Part shown: positions 39,253 through 56,970 of the stretch, one piece after another
How the letters are laid out: each line of letters begins with the position of its first letter
How positions within the stretch are numbered: position 1 is the stretch's first letter
Origin: Rothia mucilaginosa
GTDB lineage: Bacteria > Actinomycetota > Actinomycetes > Actinomycetales > Micrococcaceae
Direction of reading: 5' to 3'
Assembly (NCBI RefSeq): GCF_019334805.1
Contig: NZ_CP079822.1
Location: 248,001-312,000, forward strand
Length of the DNA stretch: 64,000 bases
Program-made: the position numbers and the translations under genes
The notes under the pieces: generated by a model
Told to the model about the DNA's origin: nothing
What the model saw: only the letters and a program-made list of their open reading frames with translations
Databases searched by the model: none

Positions 39253-39701
39253 GATTGTCCTATTCAGTTCTTGTTTGAGTTGAGTGAGTTACGGGTGGCA
39301 GGATGCGCGGACAGCGGCGTAAACGGTGAGTGAGGCCGATACGGTGGTTCCCTCCCCTGTGTGCGTGAGTGAGACGCAGCGTACGGGGTGCGGGTGTCTG
39401 TCGGGCGGATGCGCGGTGAGTGAGACCGGCACGGTTCCCTGACCCAGTCATCTAGCGTACCTTAAAGTCCCGTTTAAAGCGAAGACGAAACGGCGGTGAT
39501 TTTACGCCCATTTTCGGTATTCAACGAAGTAGGGGCGTTATCTGGCAACGTTTGCCGGAAGTTGGCATGGGTTGGACGAGGGAGGCAAGGGAAGCATTGC
39601 GGAGCCGCTGGGGTGCGGATTGAACATAGTTAGGCTGATATTTTTGGGTGCACTGTTTACCAGCCCTCCTTTTTGGGGAGGACTGGTAAACAAGGCTTTC
39701 T
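39253..39701 (-). other. Intergenic region between SLH/Tat gene and CRISPR
   Basis: 449 bases. GGTGAGTGAG followed by (G/A)CCG occurs at about 39327 and 39412, both running into ACGGT and TTCCCT, and CGTGAGTGAGACG at about 39364 is a third partial copy. These may be operator repeats for the minus-strand gene. The last 50 bases hold the inverted repeat annotated next. No gene is supported. Confidence 0.45.
39655..39691. repeat. Inverted repeat at the old end of the CRISPR array
   Basis: GTTTACCAG at 39655-39663 pairs with CTGGTAAAC at 39683-39691, with CTCC/GGAG inside. It sits 10 bases beyond the last degenerate repeat, where a transcript from the leader would end, so it may terminate the pre-crRNA, although no T-run follows. 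Confidence 0.55.
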
Positions 39702-39912
39702 AAAACATCCCCACTGATGCGGGGAACACCTGAACGCGCTCAAGCTGACGATGCAATGGCAGGGCTCATCCCCGCTCACGCGGGGAACACATACGCCGCT
39801 CCAGAGCCTCAATCAGGACTTTGGGCTCATCCCCACTCGCGCGGGGAACACCAAGGCATTGCGGCTCGCCCGGCGGTTGCCCCGGGCTCATCCCCGCTCG
39901 CGCGGGGAACAC
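39702..39912 (-). CRISPR. Short type I-E CRISPR piece, four repeats
   Basis: 28-base repeats at 39702-39729 (degenerate at its outer side), 39763-39790, 39824-39851 and 39885-39912, with three 33-base spacers. Core CCCCGCTCGCGCGGGG with GAACAC ends, the same as the oldest repeats of the large array. The degenerate outermost repeat marks this as the leader-distal end. It is separated from the main array by about 686 bases. Confidence 0.92.
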
Positions 39913-39924
39913 AAGAAAAAACGC

Positions 39925-40215
39925 TCATTTATCCTTCTTTTCTTTGACCTCAACACCATGTGGACGCGGGGTGCCGCTGTTATTCCAGCCCCACGCTCGG
40001 GATTTCGGCGGGTTCTCCTCACGCCAATCCATCCAGCGGCGAACCTCGGATTCGAAATAACCCCAGGTGTTGCCGGTACGCGAGGCGGGGTGCAGGTCAC
40101 CCTTCTTGCGCGCGCTGTTCACGGTCGCGACCTCTACCCCGGCCATTTTTGCAACTTCTGAACTCGTCAAATACACGGTGAATTCGTGTTCCGTGTGTTC
40201 CGTTTTCTTTGCCAT
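39925..40215 (-). CDS. Small HTH (excisionase/MerR-like) DNA-binding protein
   Basis: About 96 residues; ATG at 40215 (MAKKTEHTEHEF) follows AAAGGATAACAGCA. A longer frame reaches 40254 without an RBS. Residues about 15-65 form a winged-helix HTH: YLTSSEVAKMAGVEVATVNS, RKKGDLHPASRTG, YFESEVRRWMDW. The tail is Pro/Trp/Lys-rich. Such proteins are common on actinobacterial phages, plasmids and integrative elements, where they act as excisionases or repressors. It lies within what looks like a split CRISPR array. Family level certain, function inferred. Confidence 0.75.
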   Translation of the reverse strand: MAKKTEHTEHEFTVYLTSSEVAKMAGVEVATVNSARKKGDLHPASRTGNTWGYFESEVRRWMDWREENPPKSRAWGWNNSGTPRPHGVEVKEKKDK

Positions 40216-40281
40216 TGCTGTTATCCTTTCTTCTGCGTGTTTCCATGATTTCACGCCCTTCTGTCCCTCTCGTTTGGGGGT

Positions 40282-40333
40282 CCCCGGTGCCTTTTCCCAC
40301 GCCTGTTTTTGGGCGGTGGCACCGGGGTTTTTA
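40282..40333 (+). terminator. Rho-independent terminator-like hairpin in the CRISPR-splitting segment
   Basis: CCCCGGTGCC at 40282-40291 pairs perfectly with GGCACCGGGG at 40318-40327, followed by TTTTTAT on the plus strand. No plus-strand gene is evident upstream. Confidence 0.65.
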
Positions 40334-40549
40334 TATTCTTGCAGTCAATAAGCAGCCAACCATCTGGACAGTATTAGTCACGACTATAATGCCTACCAGC
40401 TCAAACAACCAGACGCCAAGACCTACTACAGGTATTCGGCTTTCATCGCCATTTCTAGATGCCCTGCAGGCTCTGAGAGTAAACCCAGCCAAGACCAGCG
40501 AGAAGTGGGCGGCAACAACGAATCCGGCAACGCCGAAGCTTAACCCCTG
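40331..40549 (-). pseudogene. Fragment of a hydrophobic membrane protein
   Basis: An open minus-strand frame of about 72 codons bounded upstream by TAG, with no ATG near its beginning. It reads as two membrane segments (FGVAGFVVAAHFSLVLAGF and GVWLFELVGIIVVT) separated by a short charged loop (RASRNGDESR). It is probably a remnant brought in with the HTH gene. I do not recognise the family. Confidence 0.35.
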
Positions 40550-40598
40550 CTAGTACGAGGAACATCGGCTCCCCTCTCCAGCCGGGAGCCTAGGAGGG

Positions 40599-43500
40599 GG
40601 ATCACCCCCGCTTGCGCGGGGAACACTCCTGACCGTCCAGAACCGACCATTCAACGAACGGCTCACCCCCGCTTGCGCGGGGAACACTCCTGACCGTCCA
40701 GAACCGACCATTCAACGAACGGCTCATCCCGGCTTGCGCGGGGAACACACCTAACCCCAGAATCACCATCGTCTTAAGCTCGGCTCATCCCCGCTCGCGC
40801 AGGGAACACTACGTCCCCGCAGCGGCGGCATGTGCAACGGCGGGCTCATCCCCGCTCGCACAGGGAACACACGAAAACCGACACCACCCATCCCCTGCGT
40901 CCCGGCTCATCCCCGCTCACGCGGGGAACACCACAGGGAAATTTCACCCTGGCAGTAAAGGAACGGCTCATCCCTGCTCACGCGGGGAACACGTGTACAG
41001 CTCGCGTGCTTCAGAGCGGCGGAACGGCTCATCCCCGCTCGCACGGGGAACACACTTTATTTAGCTGATATGAATATCGTAGCGCCGGCTCATCCTCGCT
41101 CACGCGGGGAACACCAGTTTTTCGCGACTGAATGTCCAGCCAGTCGAGGCGCATCCCCGCTCGCGCGGGGACCACCCAGCAAGGCCAATCATCACGTCAG
41201 CCGGGACGGGCTCATCCCCGCTCGCACGGGGAACACATCACCTGGCACGTGCTCGCCTCCTGCCTCTGGGGCTCATCCCCGCTCGCGCGGGGAACACTTG
41301 CCGAGTATGAAGATGAGGTACGTGCCCGCCGGCTCATCCCCGCTCGCGCGGGGAACACCATCATTGAGGAGTCGAGTAGCACGCATACGGGGGCTCATCC
41401 CCGCTCGCGCGGGGAGCACCTGGCAGCCGAAAAGATCAGGATGAGCGCGTGGGGCTCATCCCCGCTCGCGCGGGGAGCACACCCGCAAGGGTTTCGCGGA
41501 GACCACGCAGACGGGCTCATCCCCGCTCGCGCGGGGAGCACCGGCTTTTTGATGCTGGTCTGTCTCATGGCCTGGGCTCATCCCCGCTCGCGCGGGGAGC
41601 ACGTACCAAAGCTCACCCGGTGTGCCAACAGGTCGGGCTCATCCCCGCTCGCGCGGGGAGCACGGTTCTGACAGAGAATCACAGGGGCGAAGGCGGGGCT
41701 CATCCCCGCTCGCGCGGGGAGCACGGTTCTGACAGAGAATCACAGGGGCGAAGGCGGGGCTCATCCCCGCTCGCGCGGGGAGCACCTAGTAGGATTCCTA
41801 GCAAGTCCATTATTTGCGGGCTCATCCCCGCTCGCGCGGGGAGCACTAATGCCGTAGGGCGGGTCGGTGATTAGGGCTGGGCTCATCCCCGCTCGCGCGG
41901 GGAGCACGGTAACGAATTGGTAGGGGGGGGGTACCAAATCGGGCTCATCCCCGCTCGCGCGGGGAGCACAGGCGCTAAACAACATTGCCCTAGCTGAGAA
42001 AGGGCTCATCCCCGCTCGCGCGGGGAGCACCCGAGCGGGCGGGAGGGGGTGGCGAGCGCCTTGGGCTCATCCCCGCTCGCGCGGGGAGCACGCGACATAC
42101 CGATACTAGACGCATAATGCCCGGGGCTCATCCCCGCTCGCGCGGGGAGCACCCGTCGCCTATGGTCAGTCAATCGAGGTTGAGGGGCTCATCCCCGCTC
42201 GCGCGGGGAGCACGAGATTCAGGACTATGACGGTATCCCTTTGGGGGGCTCATCCCCGCTCGCGCGGGGAGCACTTCTTGGGGTGCAGCCTGATGCCGGT
42301 CACGGCGGGCTCATCCCCGCTCGCGCGGGGAGCACCAGTGCACAAATCCCGTTGGGCGTTGCCGTTGGGGCTCATCCCCGCTCGCGCGGGGAGCACCAGT
42401 CCGTAAGTATATGCGAGGCGTACCGGGGGGGGCTCATCCCCGCTCGCGCGGGGAGCACTAATCTTCATGGTTTAGTGTTCCTCTCGGTTGGGGCTCATCC
42501 CCGCTCGCGCGGGGAGCACGACTCCATCAGATGCCATACATCCTCGCCGTCGGGCTCATCCCCGCTCGCGCGGGGAGCACGCAGAGCATCGCTTACCAAG
42601 AGCAATCCGAGGGGGCTCATCCCCGCTCGCGCGGGGAGCACGGCGGGGTCATACTCCTCCTCCCACAGAAGAAGGGCTCATCCCCGCTCGCGCGGGGAGC
42701 ACACGTTCGTTCTATCGTCGTTCGACTGTGAACGGGGCTCATCCCCGCTCGCGCGGGGAGCACCTGAGACTATGGCATCTGCAAAGGCTACCGATGGGCT
42801 CATCCCCGCTCGCGCGGGGAGCACGCTGGTTCGCTGGGTGAGCAGGTTGCCGCCGCGGGCTCATCCCCGCTCGCGCGGGGAGCACGCACCAAGCACCGAA
42901 GCCAATTCATTGTAGGCGGGCTCATCCCCGCTCGCGCGGGGAGCACCCGGTTCTGGCTTGCTTTCGCATTCCAGGTAGGGGCTCATCCCCGCTCGCGCGG
43001 GGAGCACACATAACCGGACTGCGTGACGTTGGGGTCGCCGGGCTCATCCCCGCTCGCGCGGGGAGCACCCTGAATTTGTGTTCCGGTAAACCAGCGCCGG
43101 GGGCTCATCCCCGCTCGCGCGGGGAGCACAGTGGACTTCTTCTAGCGGTCGTCCCGGCGTGGGGCTCATCCCCGCTCGCGCGGGGAGCACGCTGTGGTGT
43201 GTAAATCGCCGTGGACTTCCAAGGGCTCATCCCCGCTCGCGCGGGGAGCACTCGCCAGCCTTAAACAGTGCATCCCTACCGGCGGGCTCATCCCCGCTCG
43301 CGCGGGGAGCACGCTCTGAATCCCCGGGTTGGTGAATCTTCTGTGGGCTCATCCCCGCTCGCGCGGGGAGCACTGCCTCAGCGTTGGCGGTGAAGAGGGC
43401 GCCCAGGGCTCATCCCCGCTCGCGCGGGGAGCACTCTGCATCCCAGAACTTGATGAACTGACGCCAGGGCTCATCCCCGCTCGCGCGGGGAGCACCATCC

Positions 43501-46500
43501 AGGAATGGGCACTCATGGTGACCGTCACGGCTCATCCCCGCTCGCGCGGGGAGCACTCAGACTTGCCGCCCACTTCAGAACCATAAGTCGGCTCATCCCC
43601 GCTCGCGCGGGGAGCACTCTGGCGGTGTTCGTCAGGGACGCGCGCGATGGGGCTCATCCCCGCTCGCGCGGGGAGCACTGTGCCGGGTATGAAGGTTTTG
43701 TAGTGCATCGGGGCTCATCCCCGCTCGCGCGGGGAGCACTGCCATGATGTTATGTCCTTTTCTGATTTGCTGGGCTCATCCCCGCTCGCGCGGGGAGCAC
43801 CATAGGCTAGTAGCAGAGAATCGGACAGCTTGGGGCTCATCCCCGCTCGCGCGGGGAGCACATGCCGGTGCCGGTTTCATAGAGCACGCCAGTGGGCTCA
43901 TCCCCGCTCGCGCGGGGAGCACGAGCTCGCGTAATGCTCTGGAGTCTGCCGCGCGGGCTCATCCCCGCTCGCGCGGGGAGCACTTGCGGTGGTTGAGGCT
44001 GCTGAAGAGCTGGCCGGGCTCATCCCCGCTCGCGCGGGGAGCACTGGGTTGCCTCTCCACCCGTGAGCCATTCTCTGGGCTCATCCCCGCTCGCGCGGGG
44101 AGCACAACCAGACCCACCCGCACCGGGTGGGTTTTTCGGGCTCATCCCCGCTCGCGCGGGGAGCACCGACCTCGCCGGTCACAACGTCCACAGATTCAGG
44201 GCTCATCCCCGCTCGCGCGGGGAGCACGTCAGGCGCATATGGATAGGCACGTCGGTGACGGGCTCATCCCCGCTCGCGCGGGGAGCACGTCAGGCGCATA
44301 TGGATAGGCACGTCGGTGACGGGCTCATCCCCGCTCGCGCGGGGAGCACCAGGAGCTGCTCGCCATGCCGACCCGCTTTTTGGGCTCATCCCCGCTCGCG
44401 CGGGGAGCACAGGACTCGGCTATTCAGAAGCTCGCAAAGTCGGGGCTCATCCCCGCTCGCGCGGGGAGCACGCAAGCCGCGCCGCTCTGCATAGGGTATC
44501 AGTGGGCTCATCCCCGCTCGCGCGGGGAGCACTCATATAAGGCTTCTTGAATTTTGTCAAGTCGGGGCTCATCCCCGCTCGCGCGGGGAGCACTCCCTAA
44601 AGGGGACAACGACAGCACCCCCACCGGGCTCATCCCCGCTCGCGCGGGGAGCACTCATGGCTGGCTATAACGCGGGTCCGGGTGCCGGGCTCATCCCCGC
44701 TCGCGCGGGGAGCACGGGGTTATGAAAGCTCGACAGGGTGCCGATACGGGCTCATCCCCGCTCGCGCGGGGAGCACTCTCCTTCTTATGTCGGTTCAGTT
44801 CGCGCGCTGGGCTCATCCCCGCTCGCGCGGGGAGCACAAACCTGACCTGGACAAGCTGACGCGCGCGGTGGGCTCATCCCCGCTCGCGCGGGGAGCACGG
44901 CTCCATTGCTGAGAACATCGGCGCGGGTTGGGGCTCATCCCCGCTCGCGCGGGGAGCACTCATTGAGGCGCTTCAGGCGGGTGCGAATTGCGGGCTCATC
45001 CCCGCTCGCGCGGGGAGCACGCATCCTGCGCAGGTTGCCGTCTGATTCTTGGGTGGCTCATCCCCGCTCGCGCGGGGAGCACCAAGGAACTATATATTTG
45101 TCACAAGTACAAAAGGGCTCATCCCCGCTCGCGCGGGGAGCACGTGGTACTTCGGACGGATACCTCCTCCGGGACGGGCTCATCCCCGCTCGCGCGGGGA
45201 GCACGTAGCAGTTGCTGAAGCCATTGAGGTCATCATGGGCTCATCCCCGCTCGCGCGGGGAGCACCAGCATGACCGCGCCGCCGTGGCTGCGGGAACGGG
45301 CTCATCCCCGCTCGCGCGGGGAGCACCGGCGCTGTTCCTTCGCCAACTTGCGGGCGCTGGGCTCATCCCCGCTCGCGCGGGGAGCACTCACGCAGACCGC
45401 CGCCGAGGCATGGTTTGCCGGGCTCATCCCCGCTCGCGCGGGGAGCACCAGCGCTAACGCAGCCCAAACCTTTCTGCCGTGGGCTCATCCCCGCTCGCGC
45501 GGGGAGCACATGCCGCCGTGGTAGGCCAGCTCAAGCAGGGGGGGCTCATCCCCGCTCGCGCGGGGAGCACTCTGAGGTAATTACCGCCCCGCGCACCGTA
45601 TGGGGCTCATCCCCGCTCGCGCGGGGAGCACCACCTTGACTCCTCAGACCGCGAGCCGCGACGGGGCTCATCCCCGCTCGCGCGGGGAGCACTCCTCGCT
45701 ACTGAACAGCGAGTCCGCTGTTACGGGCTCATCCCCGCTCGCGCGGGGAGCACGAAACAGGGGATGCAGGCCAACGTTATCATGGGGGCTCATCCCCGCT
45801 CGCGCGGGGAGCACGCTTCGTGAGCTTACCCCGCTAACTACCTTTGGGGCTCATCCCCGCTCGCGCGGGGAGCACTCACTGAGTGAGTCGTAGACGGTGA
45901 CGCGGTAGGGCTCATCCCCGCTCGCGCGGGGAGCACGTGGTGTTTACGGTTTCCCATTCCCCGGCGGCGGGCTCATCCCCGCTCGCGCGGGGAGCACCTA
46001 GCGCAGAGGTCTAATACTAACGGCAACAAGGGCTCATCCCCGCTCGCGCGGGGAGCACGCTGATATCGCATTCATGCGTGAGAAGGCGGCGGGCTCATCC
46101 CCGCTCGCGCGGGGAGCACCACGCGCAGAGCCAGCGGTTGACTCCGCGCGAGGGCTCATCCCCGCTCGCGCGGGGAGCACCAGCCGCTGCATCTTTGAAC
46201 CTCGACGGTGAGGGGCTCATCCCCGCTCGCGCGGGGAGCACGATGTCGTGGCAGTGAGTCCGGCAGGGCATCGGGGCTCATCCCCGCTCGCGCGGGGAGC
46301 ACATTCTGTAGCACCTTCTCTTCTCATCCGCTTAGGGCTCATCCCCGCTCGCGCGGGGAGCACACCGGAAATATTCTAATGGGTGTTAGCGACCTGGGCT
46401 CATCCCCGCTCGCGCGGGGAGCACGGGGTCACCTGTTGCACCCCGGGGGGTCACCTGGGCTCATCCCCGCTCGCGCGGGGAGCACCGCATGAATAGCGGT

Positions 46501-47095
46501 AGCGCGCCGGTAATCGCGGGCTCATCCCCGCTCGCGCGGGGAGCACTTCCGGTCGAAGCTGCGGACTTCGACCCGTGGGGGCTCATCCCCGCTCGCGCGG
46601 GGAGCACTTTTGCTCCGCTGGCCCTGTGGCTGGCCTGTGGGGCTCATCCCCGCTCGCGCGGGGAGCACCTAAGCTCCGGTATAAAACCGTTGTGCTCTTG
46701 GGGCTCATCCCCGCTCGCGCGGGGAGCACGTGGTGTTTACGGTTTCCCATTCCCCGGTGACGGGCTCATCCCCGCTCGCGCGGGGAGCACGTCTAGGATG
46801 ATGTTCTAAACACCCACAGGCTGGGCTCATCCCCGCTCGCGCGGGGAGCACCTTTTGCGTTTCTCTCACCCGAAAAAGAAGCCGGGCTCATCCCCGCTCG
46901 CGCGGGGAGCACCCGGTAATCGCGTTCGGGTGTCCCAGCGAGGGGGGCTCATCCCCGCTCGCGCGGGGAGCACCGTGGATTGCAAGGTCACTGAATCTCC
47001 GACCTGGGCTCATCCCCGCTCGCGCGGGGAGCACCCTGCAACGCCCATGTGGGCATGGTCGCCGGTGGGCTCATCCCCGCTCGCGCGGGGAGCAC
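40599..47095 (-). CRISPR. Large type I-E CRISPR array, about 107 repeats
   Basis: Period 61 bases (28-base repeat, 33-base spacer) from 40599-40626 to 47068-47095, so about 107 repeats and 106 spacers by arithmetic. In crRNA sense (minus strand) the repeat starts GTGCTCCCCGCGCGAGCGGG. The leader lies at the right end next to cas2. Repeats up to about 41360 mostly carry GAACAC and scattered variants; from about 41393 on nearly all carry GAGCAC and are uniform. Exact tandem spacer duplications occur at 40627/40688, 41663/41724 and 44228/44289. Near-identical spacers lie at 45937 and 46730. Confidence 0.98.
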
Positions 47096-47189
47096 ACTTG
47101 CTGACATGGGGCTTTACCCCCTACATCAGCAAAATAGAATCACTTTGGAGCCAGAGCCTGTATCCAGAATACACGATAAACAGTTATTC
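47096..47189 (-). promoter_or_regulatory. CRISPR leader
   Basis: 94 bases between the newest repeat and the cas2 stop codon, AT-rich compared with surroundings. The repeat-proximal part contains an imperfect hairpin (GCTGACATGGGG / CCCCCTACATCAGC). It should hold the pre-crRNA promoter and the integration signals; I cannot assign exact boxes. Confidence 0.75.
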
Positions 47190-47528
47190 TTAACCACGAC
47201 GAGCACGGCGATACTTACTCGCCTTACTCCACCCAGATTTTGGCACCGTTTTGCGAACCACCGGGCGATAAATCAGCTTCACACCCTCAAAGTCGACAGG
47301 CTCCCAATCCGCATTATTCACCCGAAACTCAAGCCGCTGCTCATTATCCTCCGGAAACACCATCGTCGCCCTACCAGTGCCACCCGACTCCAACACACGT
47401 GCCCACAACTTCTCACGAATCCTGGCACTCACACGCCCCACAAACACGCCAGGATTAATCTCCAAAAGCCACTTCGTCAAATCACCACGAAGACTCACCG
47501 GACAAGCAGACAAAACAATAACAATCAT
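47190..47528 (-). CDS. cas2: Type I-E CRISPR-associated endoribonuclease Cas2
   Basis: 112 residues. Ferredoxin-like fold typical of the I-E (CasE-subtype) Cas2: MIVIVLSACPVSLRGDLTKW, then the strand F-V-G-R-V-S-A-R-I-R-E-K-L-W, and a basic C-terminal tail (SKASKYRRARRG) that in this subtype packs on Cas1. It forms the Cas1-Cas2 integrase that adds spacers at the leader. Its ATG overlaps the cas1 stop (TGATG), indicating translational coupling. Confidence 0.96.
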   Translation of the reverse strand: MIVIVLSACPVSLRGDLTKWLLEINPGVFVGRVSARIREKLWARVLESGGTGRATMVFPEDNEQRLEFRVNNADWEPVDFEGVKLIYRPVVRKTVPKSGWSKASKYRRARRG

Positions 47529-48472
47529 CAGTCCACCCCTCCATCCCCATAATTCATGCCACCGCGCTGAGCCTCACCCTGCTCATTCCACAAACCCACA
47601 ACATCCAGCTCAAGCATCTCCTCAGGAACCTCCTCAGACAACAGAAGCCGCTGAATATCCCGCACAACCCGCTCCATCACCCTCTCAGAACGAATACGGT
47701 CACGCACCGCCCTACGCGTCACAGACCCAATATCCATCCCCTCCGTATAGCCAGAAACCACCTCAAACGCAGCAGGAATCGTAATCTCAGCCTTATACAA
47801 ATCAGCAATGTCATACACAAAAGACCAAGAATTCCCGGTATGCACAAACCCCAGCCCAGGCGCACACCCCAAAGAAACAATCGCTGCATGAACAATCCCA
47901 TACAACGCGGCATGCGCAGCCGACAACGCCTGATTAATCGGTGACCCATCACCAAAATTATTCGGATCATACTCACGGCGTTCCCACGGAACACCAGTCC
48001 GCTCAGACCACTGCCTATACACAGAACGCACCCTAGCGCCCTCCCTACCACGCAGCTGCTGCATCGTCAGCTCGCTCGTGTCCTCACCAGGAAAACGCCA
48101 CTGATACATCATGCGCGCCACAGCCAAACGGCTCCGCGTATTCGACACCAACTTCGCCTGAGCAATCAACAGACGCGAAGAACGAGCCACAGACTTACCG
48201 CTCGCATAATAACGAACACCCTGCTCGCCAACCCACACCACCGTAGTACCGCACTCCCCCAACAAAGCCATCGCCTGATGAGTAATACGAGTACCCGGCC
48301 CCAACAGCAAAGCGCTCAAACTCGCAGCAGGGCAATGAACCACGCCCTCTTCCTTCACAAACGTCACCGCACTATCCGCACGGGAAATCGTCGCATGCTC
48401 CACATACACAAAACTCAAACGGTCAGAACTACGAAACAGCTCAGACGAGCTCGGAGGAATAGCCCCCTGCAT
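47528..48472 (-). CDS. cas1: Type I-E CRISPR integrase Cas1
   Basis: 314 residues. Metal-binding residues are at the expected places: Glu144 (in LRGREGARV), His211 (GLGFVHTGNS), Asp221 and Asp224 (YDIADLYK), each three positions after E. coli Cas1 E141, H208, D218 and D221. Catalyses spacer integration with Cas2. It is preceded by a strong terminator after cas6e, so cas1-cas2 may be transcribed separately from the Cascade genes or by read-through. Confidence 0.97.
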   Translation of the reverse strand: MQGAIPPSSSELFRSSDRLSFVYVEHATISRADSAVTFVKEEGVVHCPAASLSALLLGPGTRITHQAMALLGECGTTVVWVGEQGVRYYASGKSVARSSRLLIAQAKLVSNTRSRLAVARMMYQWRFPGEDTSELTMQQLRGREGARVRSVYRQWSERTGVPWERREYDPNNFGDGSPINQALSAAHAALYGIVHAAIVSLGCAPGLGFVHTGNSWSFVYDIADLYKAEITIPAAFEVVSGYTEGMDIGSVTRRAVRDRIRSERVMERVVRDIQRLLLSEEVPEEMLELDVVGLWNEQGEAQRGGMNYGDGGVD

Positions 48473-48583: not shown

Positions 48584-49264
48584 CTAGCGGGACAGAGGCG
48601 CCAACGTCAGAAGGCCCATACCGTACGCCTTGCCCCTGCCCATACCGGAAAGCAGAGACTTACGGAATAGCTCAACATCAGTGATGCGAAGAACGCCGTC
48701 GAACTGAGCCTTACGATGAGTCACCTTACCGACCTTGCCCTCAGCGTTACGGCGGGCAAACGCAAGGTCCTGACGAGAAGAAACCATCGGGCACTCCTCA
48801 ACATCCTGACCCTCAACCGTGGGAATTACTTCAAATCCCCATTGCGGAGCACGCTCACGAATCCACGCCTGCTGTTGCTCAGCCGTCACGTGCGGGAACG
48901 TGTCGCGCTTACCCGTCTGCTTATTCGTGTGACGCTTCACAGGGTTTGCGGCAAGACGGAAAGCCCACTCCTGACCGTTCTCCAACTTCGCCAGCAAACG
49001 ACCATAATGAGCACTCTCACCAGGGCGAGTCTGCCAGCCAGCCTGCTCCACAAGAGCCGAAAAATCAGGCTTCTCAGGGCTCAACATGTACAGAACCGGA
49101 GCATGTTTAGACTCATCCAAACGCCACAGGATGCGGCTCTCAGAATAATCCGTATCCGGCGGCAAAGTCGCCATCACAGCTGCATGCATCGCCTGCGGGC
49201 TACGCAACAACTTCCACGCGCCACGACGCTGTGGATTAATCATGAAACGAGAAAAATACGTCAT
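48584..49264 (-). CDS. cas6e: Type I-E crRNA-processing endoribonuclease Cas6e
   Basis: 226 residues, two RAMP folds. The likely catalytic His27 (PQAMHAAV) corresponds to E. coli His20. The Gly-rich loop near the C-terminus (SGMGRGKAYGMGLLTLAPL) is typical for RAMP proteins. Cleaves pre-crRNA at the repeat hairpin and stays bound to the 3' handle in Cascade. The start overlaps the cas5e stop by four bases (ATGA). Confidence 0.96.
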   Translation of the reverse strand: MTYFSRFMINPQRRGAWKLLRSPQAMHAAVMATLPPDTDYSESRILWRLDESKHAPVLYMLSPEKPDFSALVEQAGWQTRPGESAHYGRLLAKLENGQEWAFRLAANPVKRHTNKQTGKRDTFPHVTAEQQQAWIRERAPQWGFEVIPTVEGQDVEECPMVSSRQDLAFARRNAEGKVGKVTHRKAQFDGVLRITDVELFRKSLLSGMGRGKAYGMGLLTLAPLSR

Positions 49265-50010
49265 GCGTCTATCACCACATTCAAGAAATCAGGTTCGGCA
49301 GGGCTCTCGGAAGATTCTGCATCAACCGAGGAGGCTGCAGCATGAAGCTTTCGTCCTTGAGGATTCTCCAATACCAGAGGCTCCGCAGTAACCACCTCAC
49401 GGGCAGCATATTGACGGTACTCCGGGCTGAAACTCACCGGAATATCCTGAACCAAATCACCGCGCTCACCAGGCAACGCATCACGCAGGATGCGCAACGC
49501 TACCGGGCTCGGAAAATCCTTACGACGATACTCAGGAACCTGCCACTCCAACGAACGCAGAGCCTCCTCAGCAGACTCCTCACGGATACCCAGGACAAGG
49601 TCGTAACCAGCCGGGCACGCACGCCGCCCAAGATACAGAGGATATACAGGCTTCTTCAGCGCAGACTCGATAGTCTCCAACTGTTCGCGTTCCCCATCGA
49701 GAGCCACTACAAAAACAGCGTCAGAAAGGTACATGCGGGTCGAAAGAGAAACCGCGCCCTTCGGGCTCTTAGCCCAGTTCTTAGCGGTCTGATAGTCACG
49801 AATCAGGGTACCAGAGGCATCCGTACGCACCGCGAACTTCAACGAAACCAAGTCATCAACCGGCTCGTTACGCGAGCGTCCCAAGGCTGCAGCGACCATT
49901 CCAATCACGCCAGATTTGCTCGGCTCATGTCCGGCATCACGGCGACGGAAACGGCTCTGAGTGCCCCATGACTGCAACGGCCCGCTCATCTTCAAGAGCA
50001 GGGTAGGCAT
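49261..50010 (-). CDS. cas5e: Cascade subunit Cas5e
   Basis: 249 residues. Begins MPTLLLKMSGPLQSWGTQSR, the usual Cas5e N-terminus (L-x-G-P-x-Q-S-W-G), followed by DAGHEPSKSGVIGMVAAALG with the family's S-K-S-G-V-x-G-x-x-A-A motif. Binds the 5' handle of crRNA and caps the Cas7 backbone. One-base overlap with cas7e. The C-terminus is about 25 residues longer than in E. coli CasD. Confidence 0.96.
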   Translation of the reverse strand: MPTLLLKMSGPLQSWGTQSRFRRRDAGHEPSKSGVIGMVAAALGRSRNEPVDDLVSLKFAVRTDASGTLIRDYQTAKNWAKSPKGAVSLSTRMYLSDAVFVVALDGEREQLETIESALKKPVYPLYLGRRACPAGYDLVLGIREESAEEALRSLEWQVPEYRRKDFPSPVALRILRDALPGERGDLVQDIPVSFSPEYRQYAAREVVTAEPLVLENPQGRKLHAAASSVDAESSESPAEPDFLNVVIDA

Positions 50011-51131
50011 TAGGACTCCTGAGAGGTGAGAGCAGTCAGCTGAGCTTCCAGGGACTCCAGCAGACCCTTCAGAGTGACAGACTCGCCCAGACCAGCCAGT
50101 TCTTCCTTGAGGTCGCCCAAAGCCAGAACATACGAAGCGACCGGCTCGTAACCGTATGCTTCTTCAATGTTCTTAGCTTCAGATGCGAGCGCACGAGCTG
50201 CGACTACGCGGCGGCCCTCAACCTCGGTGATAGCCTTCTCAAAGGCGTTCACGTAGGAGATGGGGCGGTCGTTACGAACGGTCACGATAACCGCGTCAGG
50301 CAGGGTGCGTGCAGCGAAAGAATTCTGCTTACCGGTAGGCATGGAGTTAATGAAGGAACGGACAAACGCCAGAGTTGCCTCAACACTTGCAGAAACATCG
50401 CCCAGGTTAGCGTTCAGTGCATCCAGGTTGATGTTGGCGTAGCGGTAGAAGGTGCTTGCCGCCATCTCAATGGTGCCGATCATGCCCGCACCGGTAGAGT
50501 CATCGGAAGAACGAACGACGTCATCCACTGCAGTGTAGTAGTCAAAATCGGGTTCGGAACCGTGGACGCTCAAAGCGTGTGCTACCTGGCAAGCCGCATC
50601 AACGTTGAAATCGGGAGCATCCGCCAGCATGCGACCGAAGAGAGCAATATCAACGCTGTGGTTGGTATCAAGGATTTCCTTAACCTGCTTCGCGGGAAGC
50701 TTCTCGCCGTTAGCTTCGATGATTGCCTGCACCAACTTGTCAATCTGCTGGTTGCTCAGCAAGAGCAGGTAGCCAGAAACAGGACGTCCTGCTTCTTCGC
50801 CTTCCTTCGCCTTAGGTTCCTTGAGCGTAATACCTGCAGCCTTGAAAGCTGCAACAACAGCCGTTTCAGCCTTCTCAGCATCGAACTCGGGCGCAAGCTC
50901 CAAGATACGCGCCACTACCTTGTCAGCAACCAGGCGGGTACGTACACCCAGCTGCGAGCGGTCAAGATGCGATTCAAAATCGCGGCGAATGACGGACTTC
51001 CAAGCCTGGCTGGAAACACGCTGACGCTGAACGCCGCCAAAGAAAGCGGACTTGGGGCTGCCGGTATCGTCACGGTTAATATTCGACGGGGGCAGGGTCT
51101 GCAGGGCGTGGATGTCGACGAAAGTAGTCAT
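50010..51131 (-). CDS. cas7e: Cascade backbone subunit Cas7e
   Basis: 373 residues. N-terminus MTTFVDIHALQTLPPSNINR with DDTGSPKSAFFGGVQRQRVSSQAWK is the hallmark of Cse4/CasC. F-R-Y-A-N-I-N-L-D and FINSMPTGKQNSFA are further family blocks. Six copies form the helical crRNA backbone of Cascade. It is 28 bases downstream of cas11 in the operon. Confidence 0.97.
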   Translation of the reverse strand: MTTFVDIHALQTLPPSNINRDDTGSPKSAFFGGVQRQRVSSQAWKSVIRRDFESHLDRSQLGVRTRLVADKVVARILELAPEFDAEKAETAVVAAFKAAGITLKEPKAKEGEEAGRPVSGYLLLLSNQQIDKLVQAIIEANGEKLPAKQVKEILDTNHSVDIALFGRMLADAPDFNVDAACQVAHALSVHGSEPDFDYYTAVDDVVRSSDDSTGAGMIGTIEMAASTFYRYANINLDALNANLGDVSASVEATLAFVRSFINSMPTGKQNSFAARTLPDAVIVTVRNDRPISYVNAFEKAITEVEGRRVVAARALASEAKNIEEAYGYEPVASYVLALGDLKEELAGLGESVTLKGLLESLEAQLTALTSQES

Positions 51132-51159: not shown

Positions 51160-51774
51160 TTACTTAGTGGTTTTGCTCGCAGCAGCGCGAACAGGGATGA
51201 GCCCGTAGGAGAAGTCGCGGTTCCAGCGGTACATAACCTTTTGACGCGTCGCAGGATTCAGAAGACGCATGTAATCCACCGCAAATCGACCGTAATCGAA
51301 GGCAATACCTTCGGAACGAAGCAGAGTAATCAGGCTACGCAGGTAATGCTGGCGAGCATTCTCCGTCTGAGCGGTCAGCAGAGAATCAAAACGCTTCTTC
51401 ATTGACGTTGCGGTGTCGCCAACCAGCTTGCCTACCGCGTTGCCAAAAGAAACCTCTGCATCGTGCATGGGCTGGTTCTGCGACTGCTGATGCAGAGCAA
51501 AAAGAGTCAAAGCAGTGTACGCAGCGCTCTCCGCATTACTCGGCTGGTCTCCCCTCCCTCGGTACTGTTCAGGAATACCTTCAGTGCCATCTTCCTTTTC
51601 CAGGATGATTCCTAAGAGTTCCGGGTACTGAAAGGGCGATGCACCCACACCTCGGCGAAGCTGAGCAAGCTGAGCCGTGGCTGCTGAGACACCGTTACTT
51701 TTCTGGTGGTACAGGCGCATCACTTTTGCCACGACGAAACGTTGTAGCTCATCCTGCGCGGTGTAATCACTCAT
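51160..51774 (-). CDS. cse2: Cascade small subunit Cas11e (Cse2)
   Basis: About 204 residues; ATG at 51774 (MSDYTAQDELQRF), overlapping cas8e by 8 bases. A longer frame would run far into cas8e and is rejected. Blocks ALAQLRRG-like (TAQLAQLRRGVG), AYTALTLFALHQQSQ and YGRFAVDYMRLLNPATRQKV are typical of Cse2, an all-helical protein present in two copies that stabilises the R-loop. Confidence 0.95.
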   Translation of the reverse strand: MSDYTAQDELQRFVVAKVMRLYHQKSNGVSAATAQLAQLRRGVGASPFQYPELLGIILEKEDGTEGIPEQYRGRGDQPSNAESAAYTALTLFALHQQSQNQPMHDAEVSFGNAVGKLVGDTATSMKKRFDSLLTAQTENARQHYLRSLITLLRSEGIAFDYGRFAVDYMRLLNPATRQKVMYRWNRDFSYGLIPVRAAASKTTK

Positions 51775-53452
51775 TGGTTTCCTCCTTGTCAGAGTGAGAT
51801 GTAGAGTCCTGGTAAGCCAGGGGAATAATCTTACGCAGGCGAGCATGTAGCAGGCGATCCGCACGCGCAACATTGTAGAGAACTTCATTACCAGCAGGGT
51901 CCTTACCGAAGGTACCCAGCATGGCTTTGGGGCCAGCGTTGTATTTAAGAAGGTCTGATTCTTGCGTGATTACGGCACGTACACGGCTTTGCCACTCCTT
52001 CTTTTTCTCAGCGATATCTTCCGATGCTCGCTGATCTGCAAGCCAGAGGCGGAAAGCATCTTCCATACGGTTCAGGAGAGCTTCAGTAGCATCCGCACGG
52101 AACTCGTATTCCCGACCTGCCGCTTGTAGAAGCTGTCCAGCAAACTGCCCAAGAGCGATTGCCGCGTCCATGGTGGTTTGGATGTTCTCGCGAACCATCT
52201 GGGACGCACTCACGCCTTCATCAGTCAGCAGAGAAAGCTCAAGAGTCATAGAGTCAGAAATAATGTTCTCGATGATGGAGCTCTGGGTACCGTATTCGAC
52301 ACCCACCAGCTGAACCTGTACCTCCGCATCGGTCGGGAAGTACCTTCCCGAACCCAGCTGACGAATCACGGGAGCAGGCTTATTCTGCTTCTCAGATTCC
52401 GGGGTAAGACGAGTCAGCAGAGCATCAGCACCACGCCACAGGGTACGTTCAGCCGCGTGAGTCTGCGGCATCCATACCTGTTCGGTCTTTGACGACTGAT
52501 TCTTGCTGTACCGATACCCCGTCAGAGGGTCAGTATAGGTATTGCGATCAAGCCACTTATCACCGTTGGAGATAAGTACCGAAGTCACACGATTGCCGTC
52601 ATGATGCAGACGGATGCGACGTGACTGCCAGGTCAAAATCTCGCACATACCGCTCGCGGGCACCGGCTGGTCCTTGTACTGAGCCGCAGGACCACCAGTG
52701 TATGCACGCGGTGCTGCGGTATCAGGTTCAGCACGTTCCCAAACTGGAACGTCTTGTTCGAATGACTCTTTATCGGTCAACTGCTCGTAGTCCAGGCTGT
52801 ACAGCAAGGTTTCCATCATGTTGGCGCCGTGAACAATCACCTTGCCGGTGGCGCCGTACCAGCCAACGCCCAGAGGATAGCCCTTGCCACCCTTAACACG
52901 GGGGTCACCTACAGCACCAGATTTAATACCTGAGTAGTCGTAGGCATGAAGCGTTACGAGATACCGAGCTGCTTCAGCAAAGCTCAGAGACTTCAATGTC
53001 ACCTCAGCCCGCTGCGAGAAGTACTCGCTTTCAGAATCCAAAACCAAGCGACTAACAGGCTTCGTGTCCCCCTTTGCCGTATGCAAATCATGCACCTGCA
53101 TAAAGGGGCGCTCGCCGCCTACCAACCAGAAACGATCCTTGAAAATTTCAAGGTATCCCAGAACAGCAGCCAGGTTATTAGCGTCAGGCTCACGCATCTG
53201 GCGAATCCATTGGGCCGGACCATTAGAGGTATCGATACTGTCTGCAAGGAAGGATGCACGAGCAAAAATCACGAGCACGACACCAAAAATTGCAGTATCC
53301 GTCAGCGGGTTATCCGATTGAATTCGGTCAATCTCATACACCCGTTTGAAATAATCGCGCAGAGACAGCTCGACTACTTCGCCCGACTTAAGCCGGGCAA
53401 GAATCCATGCTTCATCTACAAGATTGAACCTAGGTTCTTCCATGACAACCAT
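51767..53452 (-). CDS. cas8e: Cascade large subunit Cas8e (Cse1)
   Basis: About 561 residues. I chose the ATG at 53452 (MVVMEEPRFNLVDEAWILAR) because AAAGGAG precedes it; the longer frame from 53509 lacks a site. FNLVDEAWI, the FWLVGGERPFMQV block, G-G-K-G-Y-P-L-G-V-G-W-Y-G and CEILTWQSRRIRL are Cse1 features. Recognises the PAM and recruits Cas3. About 60 residues longer than E. coli CasA. First gene of the Cascade operon. Confidence 0.95.
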   Translation of the reverse strand: MVVMEEPRFNLVDEAWILARLKSGEVVELSLRDYFKRVYEIDRIQSDNPLTDTAIFGVVLVIFARASFLADSIDTSNGPAQWIRQMREPDANNLAAVLGYLEIFKDRFWLVGGERPFMQVHDLHTAKGDTKPVSRLVLDSESEYFSQRAEVTLKSLSFAEAARYLVTLHAYDYSGIKSGAVGDPRVKGGKGYPLGVGWYGATGKVIVHGANMMETLLYSLDYEQLTDKESFEQDVPVWERAEPDTAAPRAYTGGPAAQYKDQPVPASGMCEILTWQSRRIRLHHDGNRVTSVLISNGDKWLDRNTYTDPLTGYRYSKNQSSKTEQVWMPQTHAAERTLWRGADALLTRLTPESEKQNKPAPVIRQLGSGRYFPTDAEVQVQLVGVEYGTQSSIIENIISDSMTLELSLLTDEGVSASQMVRENIQTTMDAAIALGQFAGQLLQAAGREYEFRADATEALLNRMEDAFRLWLADQRASEDIAEKKKEWQSRVRAVITQESDLLKYNAGPKAMLGTFGKDPAGNEVLYNVARADRLLHARLRKIIPLAYQDSTSHSDKEETNE

Positions 53453-53601
53453 TCCCACTCCTTTCTTCTTTGAAATCAGCTCCTTGTCGAATGACGAACA
53501 AGCGAGCACAATATCGGACTCTGGTCCACAATGAGAGTAGACCAGGTAATTAAGCCTTGTCAGTAGGTTCTTTGAAGAGCCTTCATTGGCTTGTTGAGTT
53601 C

Positions 53602-53826: not shown

Positions 53827-56800
53827 ATGGCACCCGCCCCTGAGCATCTTTCAACACCTGAAACGGCATCATTCTGGGCAAAAACAGGAGACAAGGACTC
53901 CCCTACCCGCGGCCTCTCCCTCGTTCAGCACATGCTCGATGCTGGTTCTGTTGCCGCCCGCCTCTGGGATACGTGGCTCGCCCCCGGTCTGCAGAAGCGT
54001 TTTAGTGAGCACCTCCACCTTTCTATGGAAGATACGCGCGCACTTGTATGCTGGCTCGCCGCCACCCACGACATGGGCAAAGCAACCCCCGAATTCTCCG
54101 GGCAGCTCGATGCACGACGCGACGAAAACCTCGCTATATACCGTCAGCGTATCGAGCAGCAGGACTTTGAGTTCCCTGAAGACCTTGTGACCCCCACTAG
54201 CGGTATGCGCTGCCCCCATAGCAAGTACAGCCAGAGTATTCTCATTCATCTGCTCACCAACAATATCGAGGGCATGCCGAGTAAAGTCGCTGAAACTCTT
54301 GCAAGTATTTCCGGCGCGCACCACGGCACACCAGCAGACTACCTCTCTGCATCCACTGAACTGAGCAACGTCATTTTGGAGCGTCTCTCCCCCAAATGGC
54401 ATGCCACCTGGCAGGAACTCTACGACATCACACTGGAACGTTTCGGTGCATCCTCGGCGTTACAGCAGCTAGCACAGCACGGACAGGTTATCCCCGTCTC
54501 CGTGCAGTTCTGCATTACCGGTTTCGTCATCATGTCAGACTGGATTGCCTCAAACCCTGATTTCTTCCCCATGGGAACCTTCGGCTCAGCCGAACAGGAA
54601 CAGCGAGCGCGCATCGGCTGGCAAGCTCTCGGGCTTGAACAACGCTGGATCGCCGCGCTGGATACCCACCCCGGCGCACCTGCAGTTAATCTCTACGCAT
54701 CCCGTTTTGGGTGGAAGAATCCCACCCTACGCCCCATGCAGGAAGTCGTAGTCGAAGCGGCACGCTCCATGCAAAGCGGCGGCATGATGTGCATCGAAGC
54801 ACCCATGGGTCAAGGTAAGACCGAAGCCGGTCTTATTGCTGCCGAGTTCCTTGCGCAGGCAACCGGTCGCACCGGTGTAGCCTTTGCTGCACCAACTCAG
54901 GCAACTTCTAATGCCCTCTTTGACCGTGTTATCGAATGGGTGGAATACCAGACAAATAACGTGGCGCAAGAACACGGCGGACCTATTGAGCCGCACTCCA
55001 TGTTCCTGGGTCATTCCAAGAACCGGTTCAACAAGTCCTATGAGGCACTCTCCAAAGCAGATATTTTCGACGAGTCTTCTACCCCCGGGCGAGAAAACAA
55101 CCGAAAAACGCTACGCCCCGGAACGTCCCTCGCGCGACACAGCTGGCTCAGCGGTACAAAGAAGGGACTTCTCTCCAGCTTCGTTGTGTGCACCATCGAC
55201 CAGGTTCTCATGACCGCTCTGCAAGCACGGCATGTGATGCTCCGATACCTTGGGCTTGCGTCTAAGGTCATCATCATTGATGAGGTTCACGCCTACGACG
55301 CATACATGAACCAATACCTTTCTACTGCGCTCTACTGGATGGGTCAAATGAATGCGCCCGTCATTCTCATGTCAGCGACCCTGCCGTCAGCCACTCGTGA
55401 TGATCTCATGGAGCACTATGCCAAGGGTCTGAAGGTTGGAGCAGAACCGAACAAAGTAGCTGCTCCTGCTCCCCCATCACAGAATGACCTGATGGCGAAA
55501 ATGAAAGCTCGACTCGCAGGTATTCAGGCAGCACCTAAGCCGGAAGCGTCCGAAGAACCCTTCCTCGATCTGGATTACCCCGTCGTCCACACGCTCACCG
55601 CCGAAGACAACGGAACTCCCAAGAAATGGAAGGTTGAACAGCCCGTAGAGCAAACCGAAATCGAGCTGAAACTCATTGACGACAGCCCCGAAAGCGTCCT
55701 GAACGTGCTCGAACCGCTCGCCAATGACCACGGATGCGCCGCAGTCATCTGCAATACCGTTGGCCGAGCCCAGGAAATGCACGCATTTCTGAGTGAACGG
55801 TTCGGTGAAGAGCACGTAATCCTCACGCACTCTCGCTTTACCGCCACACACCGCGCCGAACAAGAAGAAATTCTTGTCTCCAAGCTCGGCAAGAAGGCAC
55901 ACTACAGCAAAGCTGACGGGGAGGATTCCTCGCGCCCGCACCGCCTCATTGTGGTGGGTACGCAGGTCATCGAGCAGTCACTTGACCTGGATTTTGACGT
56001 GATGATTACCGACTTCGCGCCGGTTGACCTGGTACTTCAGCGCATGGGACGTCTACACCGTCACGATAGCCGCAGCAGCTCGGAACGCACCCCCGCATAC
56101 CGCAAGCCGGTGTGCTACGTGCGAGGAGTTGAAACTTTCGGCTCGCACATTGAGGCACCCGACTTCCCGCGTGGATCCAAAGCAGTCTATGAGCCGATGA
56201 TTCTGCTCAGCAGCTACGCACAGCTACTCCCCCACTTCGACGGTGAGCCGATTCGAATTCCTGCGGACATCAGTCCGCTGGTGCAGAAGACCTACCAGGA
56301 AAATACGTCTACTAAGATTCCTAGTGCCTGGGCAGAAATCTACGAGAACGCCAAGCAGGAATACGAGAAGGGTAAAGAACAAGCCAAGGCCCGAGCTGAA
56401 GGCTATCTGCTCTGCGCGCCTCAGGGTGAGTACACCATGGCGGGTTGCATGAAGAGTCTTCTCCAATCCAACGACCGGCGATTCTCTGACGAACAAATCG
56501 GCGAGGCAAAGGTTCGCGACACCGACGCGTCCCTGGAAGTTATCGCAATTGTGGTAGAACGGAACCAGCCGGGCAATCCCAAGAGCGCGATTAAAAACTA
56601 CCGACTCTTGCCTTCCATCAACGGTACAGACGAGGCTGATTCTCTCTGCTTTGACGCTTCAGCCGATGACCCACCGACTTACTGGCAGAGCATGCAACTT
56701 GCGGCTTCATCGATTCGACTCCCCTACCAGTACTCAGATGCACCCAACCACCGCGTCAGGGGTGGGATACTCCGATTCGACGCTGCACTCGACCAGCTGG

Positions 56801-56970
56801 AGAAGGAACGCATCGAGAACTGGCAGAAATCATTCATGCTGGAGGGGCAGCTCATCCTGCCCTTCGAAGAGGTCGAAGCAGGCGTGTACTCGTATATTCT
56901 CTGCGACCACGAGCTGGTGTACAGCACCCAGCTAGGCCTGCAGAGCTTCAAGCTTGATAACGAAGACTAG
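53827..56970 (+). CDS. cas3: Type I-E helicase-nuclease Cas3
   Basis: 1047 residues, ATG after AAGGAGAATC. N-terminal HD nuclease: His35 (SLVQHMLDAG) and His81-Asp82 (LAATHDMGKATPEFS). Superfamily 2 helicase: Walker A EAPMGQGKTEAG near residue 328, DEVH box IIDEVHAYDAY near 485, SATLPSATRDD near 515, and motif VI region LVLQRMGRLHRHD near 737. Nicks and degrades DNA marked by Cascade. Encoded divergently from the Cascade operon; about 160 residues longer than E. coli Cas3, partly through a charged insert near 545-620. A terminator follows directly. Confidence 0.97.
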   Translation: MAPAPEHLSTPETASFWAKTGDKDSPTRGLSLVQHMLDAGSVAARLWDTWLAPGLQKRFSEHLHLSMEDTRALVCWLAATHDMGKATPEFSGQLDARRDENLAIYRQRIEQQDFEFPEDLVTPTSGMRCPHSKYSQSILIHLLTNNIEGMPSKVAETLASISGAHHGTPADYLSASTELSNVILERLSPKWHATWQELYDITLERFGASSALQQLAQHGQVIPVSVQFCITGFVIMSDWIASNPDFFPMGTFGSAEQEQRARIGWQALGLEQRWIAALDTHPGAPAVNLYASRFGWKNPTLRPMQEVVVEAARSMQSGGMMCIEAPMGQGKTEAGLIAAEFLAQATGRTGVAFAAPTQATSNALFDRVIEWVEYQTNNVAQEHGGPIEPHSMFLGHSKNRFNKSYEALSKADIFDESSTPGRENNRKTLRPGTSLARHSWLSGTKKGLLSSFVVCTIDQVLMTALQARHVMLRYLGLASKVIIIDEVHAYDAYMNQYLSTALYWMGQMNAPVILMSATLPSATRDDLMEHYAKGLKVGAEPNKVAAPAPPSQNDLMAKMKARLAGIQAAPKPEASEEPFLDLDYPVVHTLTAEDNGTPKKWKVEQPVEQTEIELKLIDDSPESVLNVLEPLANDHGCAAVICNTVGRAQEMHAFLSERFGEEHVILTHSRFTATHRAEQEEILVSKLGKKAHYSKADGEDSSRPHRLIVVGTQVIEQSLDLDFDVMITDFAPVDLVLQRMGRLHRHDSRSSSERTPAYRKPVCYVRGVETFGSHIEAPDFPRGSKAVYEPMILLSSYAQLLPHFDGEPIRIPADISPLVQKTYQENTSTKIPSAWAEIYENAKQEYEKGKEQAKARAEGYLLCAPQGEYTMAGCMKSLLQSNDRRFSDEQIGEAKVRDTDASLEVIAIVVERNQPGNPKSAIKNYRLLPSINGTDEADSLCFDASADDPPTYWQSMQLAASSIRLPYQYSDAPNHRVRGGILRFDAALDQLEKERIENWQKSFMLEGQLILPFEEVEAGVYSYILCDHELVYSTQLGLQSFKLDNED

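Follow-up and report, generated by a model that had tools for sequence, protein, structure and literature searches.

We analyzed a window of 64,000 nucleotides of the Rothia mucilaginosa genome (NZ_CP079822.1, positions 248,001 to 312,000 of the forward strand), which contains a type I-E locus of clustered regularly interspaced short palindromic repeats (CRISPR) with its cas genes. Two spacers of this array are identical except for two bases, both located in the seed. This pair is best read as a re-immunisation at the same site against a seed variant of the target, an explanation we consider probable. It is derived from the behavior of near-identical spacer pairs as a class in other type I-E arrays, not from a target of the two spacers. 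Positions given below are those of the window.

Spacer 6, the sixth from the leader side (46730-46761, minus strand), reads GTCACCGGGGAATGGGAAACCGTAAACACCAC in the sense of the CRISPR RNA (crRNA). Spacer 19 (45937-45968, minus strand) reads GCCGCCGGGGAATGGGAAACCGTAAACACCAC in the same sense. The sole differences are found at crRNA positions 2 (T/C) and 4 (A/G), corresponding to bases 46758 and 46760 in spacer 6 and to bases 45965 and 45967 in spacer 19. The distance between both spacers is 13 units or 793 bp, and since spacer 6 is closer to the presumed leader, it is the newer copy and spacer 19 the older one. An initial annotation of the window had described two spacers separated by 13 units and differing at positions 2 and 4 alone, which is exactly what re-extraction of the array returned. 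Its assignment to type I-E, its order of the spacers and its placement of the differences in the seed were right as well, judging from the PADLOC models, the array order and the canonical type I-E seed (crRNA positions 1-5, 7 and 8), as defined in passages of PMC5904413.

Chance, block duplication and in-place mutation are unlikely origins of the pair. In an all-against-all overlap scan the pair reached a score of 26, while 20 shuffled spacer sets never exceeded 10; thus, the similarity is not accidental. An all-against-all spacer comparison revealed no resemblance between the neighbours of spacer 6 and those of spacer 19, which argues against the duplication of a block. The repeats from 43618 to 47095 are letter-identical with a sole exception at 45054, and this near-uniformity makes two in-place mutations within one spacer unlikely. 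The two copies share strand and register, are near-identical and do not belong to a duplicated block, as would be expected of a re-immunisation at one protospacer.

Seed changes in near-identical spacers of other type I-E arrays

If a second spacer is the response to a seed change, the differences within near-identical pairs should accumulate in the seed, whereas mere relatives should spread them evenly. This prediction was tested in three samples, which together comprise 191 genomes, 236 arrays and 9,331 spacers, the window included. Sample 1 consisted of 80 Cas1e loci (the best 80 of 141 relatives) plus the window. The test rule was fixed after sample 1 and before samples 2 and 3 were drawn, both via Cas2e searches. 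For sample 2, regions were taken from 54 of 59, 16 of 21 and 27 of 32 Cas2e genomes, leaving out genomes already included and G517, G583, G881, G1251 and G1462, where cas2 lies at a contig end. Sample 3 took 40 of 94 Cas2e genomes, nearly in listing order, with duplicates, contig-end cases, G1515 and G1535 among those left out. Duplicate genomes were removed (five loci in sample 2, two loci in sample 3), and a corrected repeat-boundary rule, adopted before sample 3 was drawn, was applied to the parsing of all three samples.

Same-site pairs were collapsed by a minimum spanning tree, excluding adjacent pairs, block duplicates and the window pair itself. The adjacent and block edges excluded in this way were 4 edges with 2/7 mismatches in the seed and, in sample 3, 4 edges with 1/4. 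Pairs with 1-3 mismatches are referred to as near, those with 4-8 as diverged, and 22% of the mismatches are expected in the seed by chance. One of the 236 arrays (L219 at 14225) is probably a false CRISPR call; no pair comes from it. As a control, the spacers of sample 1 were compared with reversed spacers, which gave no pair with fewer than 10 mismatches. Therefore, the surveyed pairs represent real relations.

Near pairs (48 pairs from 27 genomes) carry 38 of their 90 mismatches in the seed, where 19.7 are expected (p=1.2e-5), and 35 of the 90 fall within positions 1-5. The three samples contribute 9/13, 18/50 (p=0.016) and 11/27 (p=0.021) seed mismatches, respectively. Diverged pairs (46 pairs) show no such excess, with 47 of 251 mismatches in the seed, and the contrast between both classes yields a Fisher p of 1.6e-5. 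Scored per pair, a seed change is present in 28 of the 48 near pairs (17.5 expected, p=0.0011), and three of the 18 two-mismatch pairs lie wholly in the seed, compared to 0.8 expected. A two-component fit assigned the window pair to the seed-biased class with a posterior of 0.91, which fell to 0.81 once the two richest genomes were left out. The types of mismatches do not visibly differ between seed and non-seed positions. A smaller, unexplained excess of near-pair mismatches exists at positions 20 and 21 (6 each of 90; 2.8 expected). As far as sequence comparison can tell, the seed bias of the class partly supports the idea of re-immunisation; the signal is imperfect but repeated.

Two arrays of the survey illustrate such series in greater depth. 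In Enorma burkinafasonensis (L069), one site was taken three times, by spacers 44, 18 and 2 with the seeds AGG, AGA and AAA. The series proceeds one step at a time, follows the array order and affects seed positions 2 and 3. The site is present on the phage contig IMGVR_UViG_3300031993_001145 (L273:6080-6111), where AGC is followed by 29 identical bases, beside AAG, within a frame matching tail tape measure families. As we read this frame, position 3 falls on a third codon base at which changes are synonymous, and a change at position 2 alters the amino acid, while the remaining third codon positions of the site are invariant. A second site on the same contig (L273, about 5795-5826), beside AAC, is matched in the same register by spacers of L226, L228, L200 and L219 with 2-5 mismatches and appears to be favoured by several hosts. 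For another surveyed pair (L219, spacers 37/60), a pattern search of IMG/VR gave no target.

In Leucobacter weissii (L109, array at 6966), 10 spacers among the first 19 map to four sites, namely spacers 3, 11, 14 and 18, spacers 5 and 19, spacers 6 and 15, and spacers 9 and 16, which are interleaved and show no block order. Their differences are located at 7, 1, 1, and 2+27, affecting seed positions 1, 2 and 7; two pairs are unchanged. Perhaps the interleaved sites reflect two waves of immunisation against one phage. Spacer 21 of this array ends with the 14 bases with which its spacers 6 and 15 begin.

Origin of the twin pair

For spacers 6 and 19, re-immunisation would have proceeded as follows. 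Two versions of one phage or mobile element would each have supplied the lineage with a spacer from one and the same protospacer. Strand and register agree between the two spacers, so the protospacer adjacent motif (PAM) would lie at the same position in both versions. Spacer 19 would have been acquired first. A later version of the target may then have differed at seed positions 2 and 4, leaving the older crRNA with little or weakened direct interference, and the mismatched recognition probably still primed new acquisition. The same PAM-defined site would have been re-acquired as spacer 6, by which the full seed match was presumably restored. Three elements of this scheme are inferred: what the target is, how weakly spacer 19 acts on the newer version, and the route via priming. 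Seed escape and priming as such are established in type I-E systems.

Against the newer version, the older crRNA would form rC-dA at position 2 and rG-dT at position 4. For Escherichia coli, passages of PMC13122317 describe two kinds of single mismatch as tolerated, namely rC-dA at position 2 and those with dT, wherever they lie. Among targets with two seed mismatches, according to the same passages, few disappeared in the absence of cas1, priming led to the loss of many, and many were stable. By analogy, both changes together could cut direct interference in Rothia and yet still prime. Such a joint effect fits re-immunisation, and it makes a diverged relative or a stepwise change likelier than a single-step escape mutant. 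The initial annotation had proposed a re-immunisation against an escape variant; the seed bias in near pairs elsewhere (38/90 versus 47/251) speaks for the re-immunisation, whereas an escape mutant arisen in a single step is less likely than implied there. A seed bias is also expected if relatives vary randomly but only seed variants make a second copy worth keeping, and arrays alone cannot separate a new escape mutant from an existing relative kept for its seed gap.

Several observations weigh against the re-immunisation reading. By analogy with E. coli, each single difference appears to be of a tolerated type, so that each change alone would probably not provide escape, and some two-mismatch combinations including position 2 are tolerated there as well (passages of PMC13122317). 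In the survey, samples 2 and 3 alone are not significant per pair (13/25, p=0.11, and 7/14, p=0.24), and equal weight per genome results in P=0.086. Leucobacter weissii (L109) and one further genome (L177) supply 13 of the 48 near pairs; without both, 22/61 mismatches remain in the seed (p=0.008). Sample 2 was not enriched in a first parse (7/28, or 6/24 without adjacent pairs), in which 36 arrays were dropped or misread due to a wrong repeat boundary. Diverged pairs are short of changes at positions 1-5 (25/251; 39 expected), a deficit which is unexplained and by which the near/diverged contrast is inflated. Near pairs also have a raised count at position 6 (5/90), which does not belong to the canonical seed. 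Exact re-acquisitions are equally common (46 exact non-adjacent, non-block pairs), and hence re-sampling of a site needs no escape.

Furthermore, no target with either version was found in the collections searched, so the pair is not tied to an actual phage. With positions 2 and 4 left free and as many as 3 mismatches permitted, the pair matched only the array itself in 35 Rothia genomes. The 28 bases common to both spacers, again with up to 3 mismatches permitted, had no occurrence outside the array in 395 same-family genomes, the 35 Rothia genomes included. IMG/VR contained no match to an exact 25-mer, an exact 18-mer or three codon-degenerate patterns of the pair, and the GTDB contigs none to an exact 23-mer. 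GenBank phages gave chance-level matches to the pair only (best E-value 0.3), as did the PLSDB plasmids for spacer 6 with two partial matches.

The alternative that survives best assumes that a favoured protospacer was sampled from two diverged relatives of one phage, with the differences in the seed by chance and the second spacer without special benefit. The common unchanged resampling of sites, the diverged same-site pairs without seed excess, the individually mild mismatch types in E. coli and the weak class signal at equal genome weights all favour it; by simple arithmetic, both of two random differences fall into a seed of seven positions with a probability of 21/496, i.e., 4.2%. The seed bias of near pairs as a class speaks against it, as do the two-mismatch pairs wholly in the seed, and altogether we judge it rather unlikely. 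Distinctly less probable is that spacers 6 and 19 match paralogous gene copies or a repeated module instead of two versions of one site. No target of the pair turned up in the collections searched, which leaves room for this idea, but 30 of 32 bases in register and both differences within positions 2-4 would, in our judgement, be unusual for paralogues.

A unit duplicated within the array by recombination, one copy of which mutated later, is very improbable: tandem exact duplicates exist in this array, three in number, and block duplications in other arrays, but the twin copies lie 13 units apart among unrelated neighbours, and their surrounding repeats, letter-identical but for one, render two mutations in one spacer unlikely. 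A sequencing or assembly error can be given just as little credit, for although both bases are known from the assembly alone, the genome is a single contig of 2,283,079 bases, and errors would hardly be expected to hit a single spacer twice, each time within the seed.

Re-immunisation of one site against a seed variant thus is the reading we prefer for the pair. Whether it can be generalized is a more delicate matter: near-identical pairs in one type I-E array may be a general record of seed escape, in which a favoured protospacer is re-acquired through successive seed versions of the same phage, but we rate this slightly below an even chance. With the same reserve, the Rothia pair might be regarded as one instance of such a record and the Enorma series AGG, AGA, AAA, with AGC in the phage contig, as its clearest one. 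If this is true, array order would reveal in which direction and sequence the seed of a phage changed, even when no phage has been sampled. Laboratory work indicates that type I-E immunity is weakened by seed mutations, which can also prime new acquisition. Evidence that natural arrays are shaped in this way is hard to obtain, as phages are rarely sampled together with their hosts, and a same-site spacer pair preserves both states, in their order, on a single DNA molecule. Should the seed excess hold in a larger, genome-weighted survey, arrays would become readable as ordered records of escape and re-immunisation.

The type I-E locus and other spacers of its array

The type I-E CRISPR-Cas locus of the window is complete, and all 8 of 8 scanned proteins match the corresponding I-E models of PADLOC. 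Seven genes are encoded on the minus strand between 47190 and 53509: cas2 (47190-47528; Cas2e, E-value 6e-43), cas1 (47528-48472; Cas1e, 2e-131), cas6e (48584-49264; Cas6, 4e-60, and Cas6e, 7e-53), cas5e (49261-50010; Cas5e, 1e-52), cas7e (50010-51131; Cas7e, 2e-120), cas11e or cse2 (51160-51888; Cas11e, 4e-32) and cas8e or cse1 (51767-53509; Cas8e, 8e-85). The coordinates of cas11e refer to its longest frame, whose start codon is not settled and which is overlapped by the 3' end of cas8e. Only cas3 is located on the opposite, plus strand (53827-56970; Cas3e, 6e-196). The nearest named arrays are those of Rothia sp. RSM386 and R. mucilaginosa 141_RMUC, with a Cas1 identity of 94-95%.

The main array (40598-47095, minus strand) consists of 107 repeats of 29 nt and 106 spacers of 32-33 nt, and a leader-distal stub (39762-39912, minus strand) adds 3 degenerate repeats and 2 spacers. 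Read on the minus strand, both amount to 110 repeats and 108 spacers, 105 of which are distinct. Units of 61 bp, a 29-nt repeat with a hairpin stem, spacers of 32-33 nt and the adjoining cas2 gene are the features of a type I-E array. The presumed leader (47096-47189, minus strand) is assigned by its position between the first repeat and cas2. Apart from the twin pair, the only near-identical spacers of the array are three exact tandem duplicates (46/47, 88/89 and 105/106). They are an ordinary phenomenon and different from the twin pair, to which spacers 46 and 47 (44228-44320, minus strand) provide a contrast case.

Near its old end, the array is split by 685 bp with a short frame (39913-40597), and a further degenerate repeat is apparently present at about 39700-39729. 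The 29th repeat base is C by nearly all recent spacers and G by 8 of the 12 oldest spacers of the main block; in the two nearest relatives (L056, L057) it is mostly G. In Enorma, the eight array rows inspected have C at this base, yet the matched phage site has AAG, so that the 29th base is not simply a copy of the PAM there. Judged by eye, spacer 49 (44106-44137) looks like an almost perfect hairpin that has consecutive A bases on one side, resembling a transcription terminator of the other strand.

Another site of the array was revisited. The last 11 bases of spacer 3 (46913-46944, minus strand) are the first 11 of spacer 10 (46486-46517, minus strand), an overlap score not reached in any of the 20 shuffled sets. 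Together with the twin pair, at least two sites have therefore been sampled more than once. Spacer 44 of Rothia sp. RSM386 (L056) bridges the junction, sharing 29 bases with spacer 10 at one mismatch and overlapping spacer 3 by 14 bases with the same mismatch; the site thus seems to be a recurrent target of two Rothia lineages. An IMG/VR search with a pattern across the site found nothing. Through the overlap with spacer 3, AAC is placed directly upstream of the protospacer of spacer 10, where it is a weak hint of a candidate PAM. A type I-E system would be expected to use an AAG-like PAM. AAC also stands beside a match of spacer 108 with 6 mismatches, while TTG and AAA accompany two matches of spacer 37, the former a prophage match with 6 mismatches and the latter, by our own reading, a RusA match in an Arthrobacter phage.

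Spacer 37 (44838-44869) shows 91-94% identity over 27-32 bases to RusA-like resolvase genes of Arthrobacter, Gordonia and Mycobacterium phages and also matches, at 6 mismatches, a Rothia contig that bears a portal gene. Prophage regions of Rothia were represented by 20 stretches from 9 genomes, with the capsid family in 7/35 genomes and the portal family in 7/35. When these regions were scanned with all 108 spacers over 36 loci, two matches with 6 mismatches and two with 8 were obtained; those with 8 do not stand out from the reversed control, in which one such match occurred. The whole array matched 33 records of GenBank phages, among them the RusA matches of spacer 37; many of the other records matched in several repeat-like pieces. 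In PLSDB it matched 146 records, and among the 20 matches listed the alignments spanned repeats and were uninformative. Several Corynebacterium xerosis phages carry an unannotated stretch in which numerous pieces match the array. Along this line, Corynebacterium phage Stiles (MK977710, 22026-22175, within L274) contains 14 array-matching pieces, perhaps a repeat-like sequence carried by the phage.

Comparison with known systems

The locus itself is an ordinary type I-E locus, and the twin pair is of a known kind, which is well recorded here. A search of full texts, mostly outside subscription journals, yielded no report of a seed bias among near-identical spacers within arrays, as judged by titles and abstract openings. 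Spacers in reverse complement on one protospacer are described for another system in passages of PMC10370329, and the passages on Rothia CRISPR in PMC3667864 and PMC10276449 have no bearing on the twin pair.

The Rothia locus resembles the E. coli K-12 type I-E model in its set of cas3, cas8e, cas11e, cas7e, cas5e, cas6e, cas1e and cas2e, its 29-nt repeat, its 32-nt spacers and the seed of seven positions. In the E. coli I-E system, seed-mismatched targets can prime new acquisition, according to passages of PMC13122317 and PMC5904413. In contrast to the K-12 model, the Rothia case concerns a natural array without laboratory challenge, and its new spacer lies at the same protospacer. Priming usually draws spacers from elsewhere on the same DNA. 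In laboratory arms races between phage and host (for example with Streptococcus thermophilus, or in structured colonies with type II systems), the phage reportedly mutates its target and the host gains spacers. The arrays of Enorma and Leucobacter share with the Rothia pair the re-acquisition of the same site with seed changes. They differ from it in that each contains three versions of one site, and in that a phage contig carries the Enorma site in a further version.

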